A stretch of DNA of 39,939 nt from contig JAFTKM010000016.1 in the NCBI GenBank assembly GCA_017453245.1, positions 1 through 39,939 on the forward strand, read 5' to 3'. Origin of the DNA: Clostridia bacterium. Its GTDB lineage: Bacteria > Bacillota > Clostridia > Oscillospirales > CAG-272. Both the position numbers and the translations under genes were made by a program. Shown piece after piece: positions 3,271-26,548 of this stretch. The notes under the pieces are model-generated. The model ran no database searches. It was not told the origin of the DNA and saw nothing but the letters and a program-made list of their open reading frames with translations. The number at the start of each line of letters is the position of its first letter. The first letter of the stretch is position 1.

Positions 3271-3582
3271 GGTGAAGTTTTTGCTGCCGCAAAAGTGAAG
3301 TTGCTCTAAGCCTCCCTCACCGAGGTAGCGAAGCGGCCTGAGAGTGTTAAAAAACGATTGATAATCGTTTTTCCTCGTAGGTGACCGAGTCGCAACGAGA
3401 AGGTGGCACGGCAAGGCCGTGACGGAAGGAGTCTTTCTCGCAGTGAAGTTGCTTCGCAGTGAAGTTCGTGCTATCGCACGAGTGAAGTTAAGTTTGCCCA
3501 CTTTGCCGAAGGCAAAACTTCACTATCCGTAGGATAACTTCACTGGACATAGTAAACTTCACTTGCCCCTTAGGGCAAACTT
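3271..3582. repeat. Hairpin-linker array A1 (AGTGAAGTT/AACTTCACT linkers)
   Basis: Short palindromes are separated by GTGAAGTT or its complement. Stems include CGTGC/GCACG around TAT, TATCC/GGATA and GCCCCTTAGGGGC. The linker orientation flips about midway, so the two halves are complementary. The centre carries a longer GC-rich unit (about 3306-3455, the CCTCCCTCACCGAGG family) that contains an inserted ACGATT hairpin. The same long unit recurs in inverse orientation at 23767-23900. No coding content is supported. Confidence 0.8.
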
Positions 3583-3584
3583 AG

Positions 3585-3634
3585 TTATGCGTGTTCCCCG
3601 TTAAGAACACGCATAAAAGCGGAGTTTTTTGTTT
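3585..3634 (+). terminator. Hairpin with T tract after array A1
   Basis: TTATGCGTGTTC (3585-3596) pairs perfectly with 3605-3616 (12 bp). Eight bases later there is a T6 run and then GTTTT. Read in the opposite direction, this hairpin precedes CTAAGTTTGCCC, the same order of parts seen after other gene ends in this window. Confidence 0.55.
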
Positions 3635-5496: not shown

Positions 5497-5967
5497 ATGG
5501 TAACCATCGAAATGGAAAACGGCGGCAAGATCGAGCTTGAGCTCTACCCCGAGCACGCTCCCATCACCGTCGCAAACTTTGAAGCGCTCGTTAAGGCAGG
5601 CTTCTATAACGGACTCACCTTCCACAGAGTTATCCCCGGCTTTATGATCCAGGGCGGAGACCCCCTCGGCAACGGTATGGGAGGCTCGGAGAAGAAGATC
5701 AAGGGCGAGTTCCGCGCAAACGGCCACCCCAACCCCATCAAGCACGAGAGAGGCGTTATCTCCATGGCGAGAGCCTACGACCCCAACTCTGCATCCAGTC
5801 AGTTCTTTATTATGCATAAGGACGCTCCCCACCTCGACGGTCAGTACGCAGCCTTCGGTAAGGTTGTCTCCGGTATGGAGGTAGTCGACGAGATCGCATC
5901 CATCCCCACAGATTACTCCGATAGACCTAAGATCGCGGTAAGAATTAAGACTGTTACCTGCGACTGA
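5497..5967 (+). CDS. Peptidyl-prolyl cis-trans isomerase, cyclophilin type
   Basis: A 156-residue single-domain cytosolic cyclophilin. It shows FHRVIPGFMIQGGD (residues 42-55) with the catalytic arginine R44 and substrate-pocket Q52, then SQFFIM (101-106) and LDGQYAAFGKV. The length and motifs fit bacterial PpiB-type enzymes, which accelerate prolyl isomerisation during folding. The start is supported by AAAGGA (5485-5490) six bases upstream and a strong promoter. The TGA stop (5965-5967) lies within a perfect 8-bp hairpin (TGCGACTG/CAGTCGCA, 5959-5977) that opens array A2. Confidence 0.95.
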   Translation: MVTIEMENGGKIELELYPEHAPITVANFEALVKAGFYNGLTFHRVIPGFMIQGGDPLGNGMGGSEKKIKGEFRANGHPNPIKHERGVISMARAYDPNSASSQFFIMHKDAPHLDGQYAAFGKVVSGMEVVDEIASIPTDYSDRPKIAVRIKTVTCD

Positions 5968-6388
5968 TTCAGTCGCAACTAAGTTTGCCCCTCGGCAAAC
6001 TTAACTTCACTGCGAGAAAGACTCCTTCCGTCACGGCCTTGCCGTGCCACCTCCCTCGGTGAGGGAGGCTTAGAGCAACTTCACTGTGCGACAGCACAAC
6101 TTCACTGCGAAGCAACTTCACTGCGAGAAAGACTCCTTCCGTCACGGCCTTGCCGTGCCACCTCCCTCGGTGAGGGAGGCTTAGAGTCAACTTCACTGTG
6201 CGACAGCACAACTTCACTGCGAAGCAACTTCACTGCGAGAAAGACTCCTTCCGTCACGGCCTTGCCGTGCCACCTCCCTCGGTGAGGGAGGCTTAGAGCA
6301 ACTTCACTGTGCGACAGCACAACTTCACTGCGAGTGTGAGCGAGTCAACTTCACTGCGAAGCAACTTCACTGCGAAGCAACTTCACCA
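5959..6388. repeat. Hairpin-linker array A2 with a triplicated ~111-bp unit
   Basis: From the cyclophilin stop codon, hairpins alternate with AACTTCACT: AAGTTTGCC/GGCAAACTT, GTGC/GCAC around GACA, and GC/GC around GAA. A long unit (GAGAAAGACTCCTTCCGTCA onward to GGCTTAGAG, itself containing CACGGCCTTGCCGTG and CCTCCCTCGGTGAGGGAGG palindromes) starts at 6012, 6123 and 6235. This gives a tandem triplication with 111- and 112-bp periods. The array ends just before the terminator at 6411. It is non-coding. Confidence 0.85.
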
Positions 6389-14830: not shown

Positions 14831-15014
14831 AACGATGTTGCTCCTTAAAGTCGCAATGATGTTTTGCTACGCAAAATGATGTAACGAGCGTATGCTCGTA
14901 ATGATGTAATGCTTGCCATATGTGCGCGAGCACACATCATAAGCGAAGCGACATCATTGTCAAGGACAACATCATTTGCCCGGGGAGGGCAAGCATCATT
15001 GTTACTTCGTAACA
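14831..15014. repeat. Hairpin-linker array B (AATGATGT/ACATCATT linkers)
   Basis: Non-coding. In the nagB sense direction the stop codon lies in TGTTAC/GTAACA (15000-15014). Then linker ATGATG alternates with hairpins such as TTGCCC/GGGCAA, TGTCC/GGACA-like and TGTGC/GCACA. It then flips to ACATCATT with ACGAGC/GCTCGT and TTTTGC/GCAAAA. The first and last linkers are complementary, so the block can close on itself. Confidence 0.85.
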
Positions 15015-15802: not shown

Positions 15803-15944
15803 GGGGTTATGAGTTGAAGCACGGCTTCATGATTTGAATTACAACCCATAATGCGCTTCAGCGCAATTCATGCCTTAGGCAATTCATGAGCCGAAGCTCA
15901 ATTCATGCGCTTTTGCGCAATTCATTGCGAGCTCCGCTCGCTTA
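15803..15944. repeat. Hairpin-linker array C (ATGAATT/AATTCAT linkers)
   Basis: In the kinase sense direction, directly after the TAA stop: GCGAGC/GCTCGC (15927-15941), then hairpins GCGC/GCGC around AAAA, GAGC/GCTC around TTCG, GCC/GGC around TAA and GCGC/GCGC around TGAA, each joined by ATGAATT. It ends with AATTCA and a GAAGC/GCTTC stem within GGGTT/AACCC flanks. Non-coding, between two genes of one operon. Confidence 0.85.
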
Positions 15945-17027
15945 GCAGTACTTCTTAACGATTGCTCTCATCTGGTCAAGCTGCGCTTCCATATCGGATA
16001 CGAGCTTGAACTGATTTCTACATCTGTCAAGGTTGTGGCTCGGTCTGTGGATTCTGAAGTAGGTGTCACCGTTAAGGTAATCCGCAAGGAATCTCATACC
16101 GCACTCGAAGGTCATCATAATAGCGCCGATGGGAAGCATCTCAAGCTCGCCCTCGGTAAGTCCGCCCTTAGCGCCCTCGATGAAGCCCTTAACGTAGAGC
16201 TCGTAAAGAGAGATGTCGAAGTTGACCTTGGAGAGATCGGTCTCGTCCTCAAGAGCGGTGGTAGCGCCGAAGCGGATGGAGTCACCGAAATCGTTTACGG
16301 AGTAGCCGGGCATAATGGTGTCAAGGTCTACTACGCAAAGAGTCTTGCCGGTGTTGATATCAAAGAGAATGTTGTTGAGCTTGGTGTCGTTGTGAGTAAC
16401 TCTGAGAGGAAGTCTGCCCTCAGCGTGAGCGATCTCAAGAGTCTTTGCAAACTCGCATCTTGACTTAGCGAACTCAACCTCAGCACTAACCTCGGCGAGT
16501 CTGCCCTTAGCGTCATTCTCGATAGCCTCCATAAGCTGGCGGTATCTGTCGGGAGTGTTGTGGAAGTTCACGATAGTCTCGTGGAGAGTCTCTGCGGGAT
16601 AGTCGCGGAGCATATACTGGAAGTCACCGAAGGAAACGGCGCTGTCGTAGAACTGCTCGGGTCTCTCAACCTTGTCGTAGCCGATGGACTCGGTAACGTA
16701 TACAAGAAGACGCCAATACTCGCCCTCAGCGTCGATGGTGAAGGACTTACCGTCCTTGGTGGGAATAGCGTTGAGAACCTCACGAAGGGGATCTCCGCCC
16801 ATCTTCTCGATCTTTGCTCTGATGAACTTGGTAACGCCTACGTAGTTCTCCATAAGGAGGTCGGGGCGCTTGAACACGTTCTTGTTGATTCTCTGGGCAA
16901 CGTACTGAACTCCGTTATCCATAGTAACGAGTCTTGTGTCATTGATGTGACCGTTGCCGAAGGGGATACAGTCAACGACCTTGCCCTCAACGTCAAATGC
17001 TGCGATTACGCTTTCGATAGATACCAT
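15942..17027 (-). CDS. APH-fold sugar kinase, NahK-like (N-acetylhexosamine 1-kinase type)
   Basis: A 361-residue aminoglycoside-phosphotransferase-fold kinase. The catalytic loop is THNDTKLNNILF (211-222, base D214) and the metal-binding aspartate is in VVDLDTIMPG (D234/D236). The length and the HxDTKxNN pattern match N-acetylhexosamine 1-kinases of the lacto-N-biose/mucin-sugar pathway, which make GlcNAc-1-P or GalNAc-1-P. The neighbours fit: a ROK kinase 5 bp upstream and nagB downstream. The ribosome site GGAGG is inside the last codons of the ROK gene, so the two are coupled. An alternative is another anomeric or small-molecule kinase. The TAA stop abuts the first stem of array C. Confidence 0.72.
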   Translation of the reverse strand: MVSIESVIAAFDVEGKVVDCIPFGNGHINDTRLVTMDNGVQYVAQRINKNVFKRPDLLMENYVGVTKFIRAKIEKMGGDPLREVLNAIPTKDGKSFTIDAEGEYWRLLVYVTESIGYDKVERPEQFYDSAVSFGDFQYMLRDYPAETLHETIVNFHNTPDRYRQLMEAIENDAKGRLAEVSAEVEFAKSRCEFAKTLEIAHAEGRLPLRVTHNDTKLNNILFDINTGKTLCVVDLDTIMPGYSVNDFGDSIRFGATTALEDETDLSKVNFDISLYELYVKGFIEGAKGGLTEGELEMLPIGAIMMTFECGMRFLADYLNGDTYFRIHRPSHNLDRCRNQFKLVSDMEAQLDQMRAIVKKYC

Positions 17028-20028: not shown

Positions 20029-22452
20029 ATGAGACTTATTAAATGCTATATCGAAAACTTTGGTCTATTGCACACCGAGGAGTTCAGCTTCAACAAGGGA
20101 CTCAACTGCTGTATCTCGGACAACGGTACGGGAAAAACCACACTCACCGCCTTTATCGAGGCTATGCTCTACGGCATAGGCGAAGGAAGAAAGCAATCTC
20201 TTGACGAGAATCCGAGGAAGAAGTACAGCCCCTGGCAGGGCGGTAAATTCGGCGGCTCTCTTACCATAGAGGCGGGCAAAAAGAGGTACACCATCGAAAG
20301 AAGCTTTGGTCAAAGGCCGGCTGACGACACCTTCAGGCTTATCGAGACCGACACGGGTAAGATAAGCTACGAATACGGCGAGGATATCGGCGAGAAGCTC
20401 TTCGGCATCGACCGCGACGGCTTCCTGCGCACAGTATTCCTCTCGGAGAAGAATCTCCAGGGCAAAAACGATAACAAATCCATATCCGCAAAGCTCTCAG
20501 ACCTCGTCGGAGTTGACGGTGACGTCGGCGGCTTTGACAGCGCAATAAGACTGCTTGAGGACAGACGTAAGTTCTACTTCAAGAAGGGTAACACGGGCGA
20601 GATAGCCAACGTAAAGGAAAGAATAAACGAGTGTCAGCGCCGCATCGACGCGATAGATACGCTCGAGGTTGAGGCCGCGAAAAAGGAGGAAAGACTCCGC
20701 GAGCTGAAGGCTGAGAAGGAAAGACTCTCTCTCCTTGAGGGCGAGCAGAAGATGAAGCTCCACGGCTTCCAGAAGCAGAAGGAAAGAAGCTCACACGAGG
20801 AGACCTACGGCGCGATGATGGCATCTCTTAGCGAGGAGAAAAAGCGCTTCTCGGAGGTGACCGAATTCTTCGCAAAGGGGCTTCCCTCAACCGTACAGAT
20901 AGACGGCGCGAGAGACACCTACGCCGAGGCAGAGAGGCTTAAGGCGGAGGCGCTTGAGGAGAGCGGAAACGAGGAATACGTCTCCCTCAGCGAGTTCTTT
21001 AAGGCGGGCACAGACTTCGTTGAGATAGCCGAGGCGGAGAGAGCCGCAGGCCTTGCCGACGAGAAGTCGAAGGAGATAGCCGCGATCAAAAACGGCTTTG
21101 ACAAGCGCTCACTAGAGATGCGCTCACTATTCCAGGACGAGGTACCTGCAAGAGAGGAAATAGAAAGGATCGAGAAATCTGCAAAGGGCGGCTTCAGCGT
21201 CCTCAAAATTCTACTCATCATCCTCGGTCTTGGACTTACGGTTGGCGGAATTATTATCGGAGAAATATACGGATATGCGATGTCTGCCATCGGTGCACTT
21301 GTAGCAATATTCTCTCTTATTTCAGCCGTTAAGCGCGGAAATAGCAAAGAACTGTTGTCATTCGTGCGCAAATACGGTGACGGCGAATCCGGTAGCGCAA
21401 AAGCGAACCTTGACGAGATAAAGGACAAGCTCACACGTTACGAGGTTCTCGCGGCAGAGCTTGACGGAGCGCTCGAGGGAGCTGAGGAGACCTACTCCAC
21501 ACTTACTCTCAAGGTATGCGCATTCCTTGAAAAGTTCCCCGTTGTCGAAGCTGACTCGATGCTTGAGTCGGTTATGATAATCAAGCAGAAATACACAAAA
21601 TACTACGCAATAAGCGAGACGGGAGAGGTCTCACAGAGCTCAAAGATGACTAAGCTCAAGAGAAGCGAGGAGCTGATGAAAAACGCTATGGCCTTCCTCT
21701 CCTACTTCCCCACTAAAACAAACGAGCCCTTCGCAGAAATCCGCGACAGACTCAGCGACTACAACTACCTCAAGGTCAGCGTCGCAAGGCTCGAGAGAGA
21801 GTGCGATCTCTACGCCGTCAAGTACGGTGTGACCGGTAAGATTGCCCCCTCGGACAACGAGGCGGAGTCGGCGGCAAACGCCACCCTCACCGAGCTCACC
21901 GAGAGAATGAAGGCGCTCTCCGCCGAGTACGCTCTTGTTGAGCGCGAGCTGAATCTCGCAAGAGCCGAGATCGATAAGAAGGATGAGTACGAGATGGCGA
22001 AGGCAGAGCTCGACGACCTTTACAGAAAGCACGTGGAGAGCCTTGAGATCATCAAGAAGACCTCGCTGTGTCTGAGGGAAGCGTGCGACAATATCACCTC
22101 CAAGTATCTTGGCAAGACCAAGGAGAAGTTCATCGAATACTCCGCTCTTATCGCGGGAGTCGAGGGCGAATATACCCTCAGCACCAGCTTTGAGCTCGGC
22201 AAGACCGAGCGCGGCGAATCCCACGGAATAGAGTCGTACAGCCGCGGCACGCGTGACCTGTATTCACTCGGTCTGAGACTCGCGCTCGTCGACGCTCTCT
22301 ACGAGAAGGAATCCCCCTTCATTATACTCGATGATCCGTTTATTGCTCTTGACGACTCCAAGCTCGAGAGAGCGAAGAACACGCTCAAGACTCTCGGCAA
22401 GTCAAGACAGATACTCTACTTCACCTGCTCAAAGGCGAGAGAGATAGTGTAG
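20029..22452 (+). CDS. yhaN: YhaN-like AAA ATPase with coiled coil and membrane hairpin
   Basis: An 807-residue SMC/Rad50-like ATPase. Walker A NGTGKTT is at 32-38, the ABC signature-like segment SRGTRDLYSLGLRLA near 738-752 and Walker B FIILDDPFIALDD near 760-772, with long coiled coil between. At the coiled-coil apex (about 389-434) are two hydrophobic segments, KILLIILGLGLTVGGIIIG and YAMSAIGALVAIFSLI, predicted membrane helices, instead of the Rad50 zinc hook. This matches the Firmicutes YhaN form, which is thought to sit at the membrane. It is partnered with the YhaO-like nuclease directly upstream. The TAG stop (22450-22452) is within the hairpin TGTAGCGT/ACGCTACA that opens array A3. 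Confidence 0.88.
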   Translation: MRLIKCYIENFGLLHTEEFSFNKGLNCCISDNGTGKTTLTAFIEAMLYGIGEGRKQSLDENPRKKYSPWQGGKFGGSLTIEAGKKRYTIERSFGQRPADDTFRLIETDTGKISYEYGEDIGEKLFGIDRDGFLRTVFLSEKNLQGKNDNKSISAKLSDLVGVDGDVGGFDSAIRLLEDRRKFYFKKGNTGEIANVKERINECQRRIDAIDTLEVEAAKKEERLRELKAEKERLSLLEGEQKMKLHGFQKQKERSSHEETYGAMMASLSEEKKRFSEVTEFFAKGLPSTVQIDGARDTYAEAERLKAEALEESGNEEYVSLSEFFKAGTDFVEIAEAERAAGLADEKSKEIAAIKNGFDKRSLEMRSLFQDEVPAREEIERIEKSAKGGFSVLKILLIILGLGLTVGGIIIGEIYGYAMSAIGALVAIFSLISAVKRGNSKELLSFVRKYGDGESGSAKANLDEIKDKLTRYEVLAAELDGALEGAEETYSTLTLKVCAFLEKFPVVEADSMLESVMIIKQKYTKYYAISETGEVSQSSKMTKLKRSEELMKNAMAFLSYFPTKTNEPFAEIRDRLSDYNYLKVSVARLERECDLYAVKYGVTGKIAPSDNEAESAANATLTELTERMKALSAEYALVERELNLARAEIDKKDEYEMAKAELDDLYRKHVESLEIIKKTSLCLREACDNITSKYLGKTKEKFIEYSALIAGVEGEYTLSTSFELGKTERGESHGIESYSRGTRDLYSLGLRLALVDALYEKESPFIILDDPFIALDDSKLERAKNTLKTLGKSRQILYFTCSKAREIV

Positions 22453-22672
22453 CGTGTTTACGCTACAACTAAGTTTGCCCCACGGGGCAAGTGAAGTTTA
22501 CCTTGTAAGTGAAGTTATCCTTCGGATAGTGAAGTTTCGCCACGGGCGAAATGGGCAAACTTAACTTCACTGTGCCCCGGCACAACTTCACTCGGCGTAG
22601 CCGAACTTCACTGCGTAGCAACTTCACTGCGTAGCAACTTTACGTTCGCATCAGCGAAAACTTCACTTTCAC
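22448..22672. repeat. Hairpin-linker array A3
   Basis: From the yhaN stop hairpin: CTAAG, TTGCCCC/GGGGCAA, then GTGAAGTT linkers with TATCC/GGATA and TCGCC/GGCGA hairpins. It then flips to AACTTCACT with GTGCC/GGCAC, CGGC/GCCG around GTA, GC/GC units and TTCGC/GCGAA. Both halves use the same linker in opposite orientation. Non-coding. Confidence 0.85.
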
Positions 22673-22773: not shown

Positions 22774-22843
22774 AGGCAAGAGAGATAAGTGCATAAAGCG
22801 CTGAAAATCCACGCTTTATAGTTAGTATTATTCCCTCTTGCCT
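22774..22843. ncRNA. Conserved structured element, copy E1
   Basis: Seventy bases closed by a perfect 9-bp stem AGGCAAGAG/CTCTTGCCT. Inside are AGATAAGTG, an 8-bp stem ATAAAGCG/CGCTTTAT with loop CTGAAAATCCA, and TTAGTATTATTC. Two more copies with the same blocks occur at 26926 and 31592. It lies 20 bp before the DUF11 start. I do not match it to a known riboswitch, and its coding strand is uncertain. Confidence 0.6.
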
Positions 22844-22863
22844 AACGAAAAGGAATATGAAAA

Positions 22864-23725: not shown

Positions 23726-24022
23726 GCCCATAGGGCAACTTCACTCGGCACAGCCGAACTTCACTGTGAGAAAGACTCCTTCCGTCACGGCCTTGCCGTG
23801 CCACCTTCTCGTTGCGACTCGGTCACCTACGAGGAAAAACGATTATCAATCGTTTTTTAACACTCTCAGGCCGCTTCGCTACCTCGGTGAGGGAGGCTTA
23901 GGGCAACTTCACTCGGCACAGCCGAACTTCACTGCGAGAAAGACTCCTTCCGTCGCGGCCTTGCCGTGCCACCTCCCTCGGTGAGGGAGGCTTAGAGCAA
24001 CTTCACCACCCATAGGGCAAAT
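23726..24022. repeat. Hairpin-linker array A4 with two long GC units
   Basis: It begins with GCCC/GGGC around ATA, then AACTTCACT linkers and CGGC/GCCG hairpins. A long unit (about 23767-23905) carries the inserted AAAACGATT/AATCGTTTT hairpin and is the inverse of the unit in array A1. A shorter copy without the insert is at 23936-23998. It ends just before a terminator. Open frames here repeat the same translated text as in A1 and are not genes. Confidence 0.85.
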
Positions 24023-25578: not shown

Positions 25579-25630
25579 GTTATCGGGGCGTTATGACAAC
25601 AACGGTTGTCAAATATCGATGTTTACATAA

Positions 25631-25758
25631 GTGAAGTTTTCGCTGTCGCGAAAGTGAAGTTCGGCTACACCGAGTGAAGTTACACTTCGCGTAGTGAAGT
25701 TAACCTCGTCCTAAATGGACGAGCTTAGTTGTAGGGCGTTTCTTACGAAAACCCTACA
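25631..25758. repeat. Hairpin-linker array A5
   Basis: Read from the minus-strand alarmone synthetase gene: its TAG stop lies inside TGTAGGG/CCCTACA (25730-25758). Then come AACTAAG, CTCGTCC/GGACGAG, and AACTTCACT linkers with TACGCGAAGTGTA-like, TCGG/CCGA and TTCGC/GCGAA hairpins. It stops near 25631, where a short spacer leads to the convergent terminator. Confidence 0.85.
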
Positions 25759-26548
25759 TTATGGGCATATCGAGCTTGCGTAACCTCTCAAGGAGCATAT
25801 CGTCCTCGGTGGGCGCGTCCTCGGCGGACTCAATTTTCTTGCGGAGCTTCAGCATATGCTCGTCGGTTGCGGCGATTACGTCGGCGCAGGCTCTGAGCTC
25901 ATTGCAGACCGACTCCTGATCGGGGATCTCCCTTTTATACCTTATCTGGTGCTCGAGGCTCGCCCAGAAGTCCATAGCTATCGTGCGTATCTGTACCTCG
26001 ACCATAACCTCCTTCTTGCTGTCGGCAAGATAGACCGGCACGGAGATTATCAGATGCAGGCTTCGGTATCCGTTTGGCTTAGGACTCGAAATGTAATCCT
26101 TGCACTCGATGAGCTTCACGTCATCCTGCTTTAAGAGGGCGTCTGCGATGGCATAAATATCGTCGATATACGAGCATATCACGCGGATTCCCGCGACGTC
26201 GCGCACGTTCTTTTCTATATTCTCTATGGTAAATGCAAGGCCGTTTCTCGAGAGCTTCTCGGCGATACTCTCCGTCCTTTTGAGACGTGAGGTGACCGAG
26301 CTTATGGGGTTTCTTTTGTGCTTGAGGTTGAACTCGGTTGAGAGTATATCGAGCTTTGTCTCAATCTCCTTTATAGCGCAGGTGTAGACCATCTGCAGAT
26401 CCTTGTACTCAACCACAGACCACATCATTCTCTTCGCCTGATTCATCACCATATTCACAGCGCCCGAGCTCATCAGCATATTGCCGATACGCTCAGCACC
26501 GCCGGAGCTATGCATCATATTTTCAAAGCTATTTTCCGTCATTTTCAT
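25754..26548 (-). CDS. Small alarmone synthetase (RelA/SpoT synthetase domain)
   Basis: A 264-residue protein with one RelA/SpoT nucleotidyltransferase domain and no hydrolase or TGS domain, the layout of RelP/RelQ-type (p)ppGpp synthetases. Family blocks are DVAGIRVICSYIDDIYAIAD, the G-loop-like ISSPKPNGYRSLH and VEVQIRTIAMDFWASLEHQIRYK with the catalytic glutamate. It has a ~60-residue N-terminal extension rich in methionine. It transfers pyrophosphate from ATP to GDP/GTP in the cytosol, tuning growth under stress. Its start overlaps the end of the small membrane protein gene by 20 bp, so they are coupled. Its stop codon starts array A5. Confidence 0.9.
   Translation of the reverse strand: MKMTENSFENMMHSSGGAERIGNMLMSSGAVNMVMNQAKRMMWSVVEYKDLQMVYTCAIKEIETKLDILSTEFNLKHKRNPISSVTSRLKRTESIAEKLSRNGLAFTIENIEKNVRDVAGIRVICSYIDDIYAIADALLKQDDVKLIECKDYISSPKPNGYRSLHLIISVPVYLADSKKEVMVEVQIRTIAMDFWASLEHQIRYKREIPDQESVCNELRACADVIAATDEHMLKLRKKIESAEDAPTEDDMLLERLRKLDMPIM

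Follow-up and report, generated by a model that had tools for sequence, protein, structure and literature searches.

Hairpin-linker arrays of Clostridia, which include the Gut-1 RNA family, are linked to IVP genes and may form the non-coding body of a selfish DNA element family

We analyzed a stretch of 39,939 nucleotides from a Clostridia bacterium (hereafter the window), in which short palindromes alternate with a short linker downstream of several genes. A first-pass annotation had described five similarly built loci in 3' regions. These loci are real, each of them lies 3' of a stop codon, and they are designated elements A to E here. Two further arrays in the window carry other linkers, namely 14855-15000 (AATGATGT) and 15829-15941 (ATGAATTG). 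In addition, a second palindromic repeat (GAAAGACTCCTTCCGTC...) occupies positions like those of array units between linkers in three of the five loci. The features are listed below, with H0 denoting the hairpin at the 3' end of the host gene.

3271..3489, minus strand: element A, right array GGTGAAGTT ... AGTGAAGTT, interrupted by a nested repeat at ~3303-3441
3512..3587, minus strand: element A, left array, a Gut-1 match (RF01706, 40.9 bits, below the 50-bit cut-off)
3585..3616, minus strand: element A, H0 hairpin TTATGCGTGTTC/GAACACGCATAA, 12 nt arms, 100% complementary
5960..5976, plus strand: element B, H0 hairpin, 8 nt arms, 100% complementary, 1 nt spacing
5980..6388, plus strand: element B, body, a TAAGTTTGCC/GGCAAACTTA hairpin followed by a right array only
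14855..15000, no strand assigned: array of another linker type with both arms, AATGATGT ... ACATCATT
15829..15941, minus strand: array with ATGAATTG/CAATTCAT linker and H0 GCGAGC/GCTCGC
22448..22467, plus strand: element C, H0 hairpin TGTAGCGT/ACGCTACA, overlapping the stop codon 22450-22452 of ORF 20029-22452
22466..22540, plus strand: element C, left array, Gut-1 RNA (RF01706, 52.9 bits, above the cut-off of 50)
22553..22667, plus strand: element C, GGGCAAACTTA and right array; GGGCAAACTTA is able to pair with TAAGTTTGCC at 22470
23737..24007, plus strand: element D, right-array type linkers with two nested repeats and no left array
25629..25705, plus strand: element E, three-hairpin array, Gut-1 RNA (RF01706, 50.8 bits)
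25730..25758, minus strand: hairpin TGTAGGG/CCCTACA adjoining element E, overlapping the stop codon of the minus-strand ORF 25754-26548
3303-3441, 6012-6076, 6123-6188, 6235-6299, 23766-23904 and 23934-23999: copies of the GAAAGACTCCTTCCGTC repeat, in short and long forms

The 5' arm of the element B H0 (GCGACTGA) consists of the final codons and stop of ORF 5497-5967, and the body of this element holds three copies of a 111-112 bp block containing the nested repeat (6003-6299). The array at 15829-15941, with its H0, lies directly after the stop of the minus-strand ORF 15942-17027, and the AATGATGT linker of 14855-15000 was also found upstream of three IVP genes (L376, L393, L424), a family described below. 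Elsewhere in the window, we observed a weak match to the leucine operon leader at 143-247 on the minus strand (34.2 bits, cut-off 50) and a palindromic stretch at 22776-22845 (AGGCAAGAG...CTCTTGCCT), which is multi-copy in the congener G006, with several copies at contig ends.

The linker AACTTCACT has 34 exact matches on the two strands of the window, compared with 0.28 expected and a maximum of 2 in shuffled sequence. In the genome that the window comes from (G000; 64% complete, with 1.59 Mb in 27 contigs), two linkers separated by 6-20 nucleotides were found 149 times and the reversed control pattern 0 times, so the proposed over-representation of the linker holds. Among 274 units between successive GTGAA[AG]T linkers, taken from stretches of G000 and 58 loci of other genomes, the mean net stem score was 4.72 versus 1.87 for shuffled units, and 75% of units versus 5.7% of shuffled units scored at least 4. 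Thus the stems vary while their complementarity is maintained well above shuffled controls, as had been suggested. The description of these stems as perfect does not apply to all of them: GCGAAGC forms only 3 bp, GGACATAGTA (3545-3554) is poorly paired, and T.C/C.T mismatches (for example in GACTCGC..GCTCGC units) make up 59 of the 91 non-Watson-Crick cells counted below. One unit type that we had taken for a non-hairpin pairs around such mismatches, and that assignment was dropped. The linker had also been called invariant, which did not stand, since the outer linkers differ (GGTGAAGTT / AACTTCACC) and other families use other linkers. It occurs in two orientations because a full copy contains two head-to-head arrays. 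A scan of viral contigs returned 83 stretches, with at least two matches at 11 loci.

No named family had been thought to show this build, but two of the arrays pass the Rfam cut-off of 50 bits for Gut-1 RNA (RF01706), at 22466-22540 and 25629-25705. Two other matches in the window stay below it, one being the left array of element A and the other lying in the right array of element C (22580-22668, minus strand, 32.1 bits). The Gut-1 consensus consists of three hairpins with GUGAAAU joins. The arrays are therefore an already catalogued build, and Gut-1 is a named family without known function. An entry in Weinberg et al. 2010 (PMC2864571) lists it as certainly RNA, non-cis-regulatory and from the human gut only, and text searches of the accessible literature found no further papers on Gut-1. 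G000 holds 64 Gut-1 matches at E<=0.001, 13 of them above the cut-off. Counting G000, matches were present in 46 of 59 relatives (39 above the cut-off) and, under strict filters, in 64 of 391 genomes of the window's class (39 above the cut-off). None of the 14 control genomes exceeded the cut-off, and one (E. coli) gave a sub-cut-off match. Among the named records listed, the linker pair appeared in at least 114, of which 81 are Clostridia by taxonomy. Clostridia account for 53 of the 57 listed records with two or more matches, and the other records, most of which have a single match and come from unrelated phyla, look like chance hits. Compared with the Rfam entry, the three hairpins and the GUGAAAU-type linker are alike; unlike it, the array is here one half of a two-array, multi-copy, IVP-linked element, it is found across the class rather than in the human gut only, and its linker is one of several types.

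Partial copies included, 35 clusters (~193 kb of G000) and 58 loci of other genomes share one plan, in which H0 at the 3' end of the host gene is followed by AAC[T/G]AA.., a left array, a centre and a right array. The left array, which is the Gut-1 part, comprises some three hairpins whose linkers all point the same way. The centre contains a GGGCAAACTTA- or GGATTT-like stretch that can pair with the beginning of the left array, and the linkers of the right array are complementary to those of the left. This make-up of a full copy, with H0 at a gene 3' end and two inverted arrays, is a new finding. The first-pass annotation had noted neither H0 nor the inversion of the two arrays, nor had it recognized the association with IVP genes or that linkers vary between families. 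Element C (22453-22672) is predicted to fold with its left linkers paired to its right ones and the hairpins protruding at the junctions; the fold strength is z -4.85 as DNA and z -4.47 as RNA. Across genera, linker, loop (mostly CTNCG or CTNTG) and unit order are alike. An H0 with a net score of at least 6 ended at the boundary in 64 of 94 pattern-found 5' ends, and in 20 of these 64 a stop codon lay inside H0 with the upstream frame open for at least 60 codons; both counts are given without a shuffled control. At least 3 of the 20 (L385, L405, L412), which lie behind tRNA genes, are probably chance; behind tRNA genes, H0 is a terminator-like hairpin immediately after CCA. By inspection, a T-run or a hairpin directly borders the left end, and sequences resembling promoters lie between array and IVP gene. 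As a separate observation, a recurring sequence, GCATCTAAACCATTCGG..TCTTCC, was found near the element in several genomes (L333, L336, L340, L342).

The comparison of loci between genomes that had been proposed was carried out with the congener G006, which matches much of the window in collinear order (long blocks at 73-87% DNA identity). No array was present at any of the five collinear sites inspected (opposite 3271-3583, 15829-15941, 22448-22667, 23737-24007 and 25629-25758), and element B (5960-6388) is not collinear in G006. Copies are dispersed, and they are absent from the congener at four of four collinear loci of the original five. At the rpmB site of element A, G006 has a plain terminator hairpin, of which the G000 insert replaces the 5' arm and loop (~11 bp). 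No target-site duplication was seen at rpmB, and few sites have clean junctions. Native hairpins were present at two G006 empty sites, rpmB and beside 25754; the element A H0 was absent at the empty rpmB site, and no hairpin such as the element C H0 was found at the corresponding empty site. Opposite 14855-15000, G006 lacks 1.4 kb and has instead a short array-like stretch with a TTATGA linker (contig 57, 6398-6547, within L537), which was excluded from the five empty sites.

This occurrence of different linker types in one place, a TTATGA stretch opposite a AATGATGT array, recalls the 3' end of the RlmD/RumA gene (TIGR00479), where 16 of 23 readable genus loci carry arrays in the same place with five linker types (7 of 30 loci were left out, their C-terminal motif being unreadable). 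The H0 of these loci has host codons as its 5' arm and a 3' arm situated past those codons. The locus's own arms matched at 213 positions, compared with a permuted mean of 180 (0 of 20000 permutations), and exceeded the mean of the others' arms in 12 of 16 loci, the exceptions being G447, G032, G025 and G020. Most array-free loci have no H0, and G030 has another hairpin without an array. Either the hairpin is the target or the insertion mirrors the host's end. Element B shows the same picture, with host codons and stop (GCGACTGA) facing TCAGTCGC.

Downstream of many arrays lies an ORF of the 23S_rRNA_IVP family (four-helix-bundle; PF05635, TIGR02436). The protein behind one G000 array matched TIGR02436 at 9.6e-29 and the solved chain 2rld at 3e-21; a reference title in PMC3936711 speaks of five four-helix bundles for the family structure. 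IVP genes were present in 47 of 59 relatives, 112 of 391 class genomes and 0 of 14 controls. Across the 391 genomes, 50 had both Gut-1 and IVP, 14 Gut-1 only, 62 IVP only and 265 neither (odds ratio 15, p 1e-19, by a Fisher test that ignores relatedness). With one genome per family at the order level (23 genomes), the corresponding counts were 11, 1, 3 and 8 (p 0.003, relatedness again ignored). A Gut-1 match at E<=0.1 was found at 10 of 30 IVP loci versus 0 of 10 Y1 loci. At least four short hairpins lay within 250 nt upstream of 14 of 27 IVP genes (3 of the 30 were left out, their upstream DNA being too short); the same held for 1 of 25 ORFs taken from Y1 loci and for 9 of 842 on viral contigs. 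This plain count with other controls took the place of a first linker-agnostic detector, which was too strict (score of at least 2 in 9 of 30 IVP upstream regions versus 22 of 923 control windows and 0 of 300 shuffles). The control of that detector was biased because most of its loci had been retrieved through AACTTCACT; of the 18 control windows that scored 3 or more, at least two belong to IVP genes (L064, L110). Counting against an IVP element, 62 of the 112 IVP-bearing class genomes had no Gut-1 match, 14 of the 64 Gut-1 genomes had no IVP match and 20 of the 30 IVP loci gave no Gut-1 match; the mismatched genomes may partly reflect other linkers, strict filters and incomplete genomes. In G000, two of seven IVP genes lie directly behind a GTGAAGT array, and none of the seven is on the window's contig. 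Beside one of the G000 genes (C17), the ORF directly after it (L283:687-1277) shows an HNH-like stretch by eye, DHIFPIAQGG..NPSNW, and had no NCBIfam match.

The linkers upstream of IVP genes include GTGAAGT, GTGAAAT, ATGAAAT, GTTATAT/GTGATAT, ATGAATT, ATGAAG, ATGATGT, GTGATGT, TTATGAT and others. On a tree of 83 IVP proteins (87 genes, less three below 95 aa and one fragment, L413+2608), the linker labels require 25 changes versus a shuffled mean of 56.9, a value as low being reached in 0 of 200 shuffles; this is a quick tree with few columns, on which 'no array' counts as one label. A label was assigned to 63 of 87 genes, a share that is circular and is not used as evidence because the motifs were read from the same upstream regions. 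The label 'none' means fewer than four listed motifs, and L381, L425 and L427 with this label show an array by eye. Linkers therefore group by IVP clade, which makes Gut-1 one linker type among those of a larger family. Adjacent DNA is co-inherited, and the clustering is therefore no proof of linker recognition. In one group, 17 of the 22 rows labelled array-free cluster together (17 of 83 tree rows), mostly with A/T-rich flanks by eye, which counts against the selfish-element reading given below. Within the same group, A/T-rich imperfect inverted repeats with GCAAAAT- or AATGAAT-like heptads, closer to the 23S IVS, were seen by eye (L370, L371, L373, L374, L378-L380, L388, L396). A GTGAAGT-type IVP was found in five of 36 genus members, and these five have 149, 70, 32, 11 and 9 matches of the linker-N6-20-linker pattern, compared with 0-44 in the other 31 (p 6e-4, or 0.002 without G000). 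The exceptions, in which the cognate IVP was not found and which count against the reading, are G011 (44 matches), G029 (25), G001 (17) and G004 (13).

Taken together, we consider it fairly probable that the arrays make up the non-coding body of selfish DNA elements, which form one family and, where they bear a gene, encode a single IVP protein. We observed its architecture, dispersal, empty sites, IVP linkage and co-occurrence, clade-wise linker clustering and a target hot spot; linker recognition by IVP and the mode of movement we infer. The 23S rRNA intervening sequence (IVS) with an S23/IVP ORF is described as a selfish element in PMC4990558. It has the same protein family and structured flanks, a likeness confined to the gene-bearing subset; in contrast to it, the elements in this study are found 3' of protein or tRNA genes and not inside 23S rRNA, and they have hairpin-linker arrays instead of one long terminal stem. 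MITEs are likewise short, dispersed and non-coding, with inverted arms and empty sites. Here, the linkers of one array complement those of its inverted counterpart, with H0 and variable 3' ends on the flanks; hairpins are nested within the arms, and no target-site duplication was seen. Avd of diversity-generating retroelements resembles PF05635, the IVP family here, according to a passage of PMC10053308, whereas no reverse transcriptase tracks the arrays. One weak IVP match lies just upstream of a reverse transcriptase match (G015 contig 18, 5972-7526), an arrangement as in these retroelements. IVP genes have also been reported in cas loci, with 18 genes in a passage of PMC3936711 and in a figure legend of PMC10910872.

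If Gut-1 were a true structured RNA, free-standing or in 3' UTRs, acting as a regulator or stability element, the IVP genes would be chance neighbours or cargo. Rfam curation and the entry of Weinberg et al. speak for this, as do the strong RNA fold of element C and the preserved stems. The base pairs point elsewhere. A selected RNA is expected to show G:U pairs, while a DNA palindrome, or one corrected by copying, need not. In 291 hairpins with 1565 stem cells (25 of 316 units dropped beforehand), the 91 non-Watson-Crick cells comprise 59 T.C/C.T, 16 A:C, 11 G:T and 5 others, so G:T amounts to 0.7%, versus 119 of 1780 (6.7%) in 84 tRNAs from the window and from loci largely overlapping those of the stem count. 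Only the G:T share was compared, because the pairing rules of ARAGORN leave no A:C in tRNAs. RNA-type covariation with G:U tolerated, a yardstick of our own and not that of Rfam, was thus not found. The rarity of G:T, comparable to that of A:C, speaks against selection on RNA, and DNA-level conservation or palindrome copying fits better. The DNA strand folds equally well, the T-run or hairpin at the left end and the promoter-like sequences before IVP genes do not suit such an RNA, and neither do dozens of dispersed copies with empty sites. We therefore regard the RNA explanation as unlikely. The first-pass annotation had offered selection on structure or a hairpin-making copying mechanism, and the two are not cleanly separable; the few G:T cells favour the DNA-level alternatives over RNA selection. 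A purely mutational origin of stem perfection, with template switching during replication keeping quasi-palindromes perfect in functionless stems of decaying repeats, would agree with the rarity of both G:T and A:C and with the mirroring of host codons by the outer H0 arms at rlmD/rumA. However, mutation alone is insufficient given the likeness of linker, loop and unit order across genera, and it leaves out the IVP linkage, so we give this origin a slim chance.

In REPIN/REP-RAYT systems, a single protein accompanies many dispersed inverted palindromic copies bearing a conserved tag. The arrays resemble them in this respect; they differ in having no tracking Y1 transposase (RAYT), variable stems, about six hairpins per full copy and a four-helix-bundle protein. 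The arrays could be REP/BIME-like repeats that an unrelated transposase has spread and that the host retains as signals at 3' ends or for chromosome structure, with IVP merely a user. Palindromes with a conserved foot, inverted pairs and positions at gene 3' ends, the layout of REP/BIMEs (PMC2817692, PMC3733652), were all found here. Yet the Y1 transposase (PF01797), present in 18 of 59 relatives, shows no association with Gut-1 (p 0.51), unlike IVP, which tracks it, and we judge this possibility quite improbable. The reverse transcriptase (PF00078) of a group IIC intron or other retroelement was also rejected as a general mover (12 of 59 relatives, p 0.43). Neither enzyme was found in G000, an absence that is weak alone because the genome is 64% complete; neither was found in G028 (96% complete, 49 Gut-1 matches), G038 (98%, 33), G054 (99%, 11) or G050 (98%, 9).

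Under the selfish-element reading, a copy would comprise H0 at the host gene 3' end, a left array, an inverted right array and, in some copies, an IVP gene, with Rfam's Gut-1 RNA corresponding to the left array of the GTGAAAT/GTGAAGT linker types. Gene-less copies would be non-autonomous relatives, more numerous than the gene-bearing ones. IVP may recognize its own clade's linker and hairpin code on DNA that, when single-stranded, would fold as a fishbone. Insertion would be aimed at hairpins at gene 3' ends, such as terminators, tRNA ends and the rlmD/rumA end, and the host would thereby be spared. The catalytic enzyme would as a rule be neither a Y1 transposase nor a reverse transcriptase. 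More speculative, and doubtful in our view, is a transposase-free class of mobile elements, in which IVP oligomers would read the linker code where gene 3' ends are being replicated and single-stranded DNA folds as a fishbone, and fold-back copying would insert and maintain the element; the 3' arm of H0 would then mirror the host's 3' codons, and stems would be perfect yet free to change.

To our knowledge, the role and mobility of IVP have been open ever since 23S rRNA intervening sequences were found. If the selfish-element reading is true, an Rfam orphan, recorded as a non-coding RNA of the human gut, would gain an owner, and the IVP/four-helix-bundle proteins would gain a genomic home. DNA palindromes would then be seen to give rise to structured-RNA calls, and it becomes testable whether a small protein without known catalysis, together with a repeat code, drives a selfish element.
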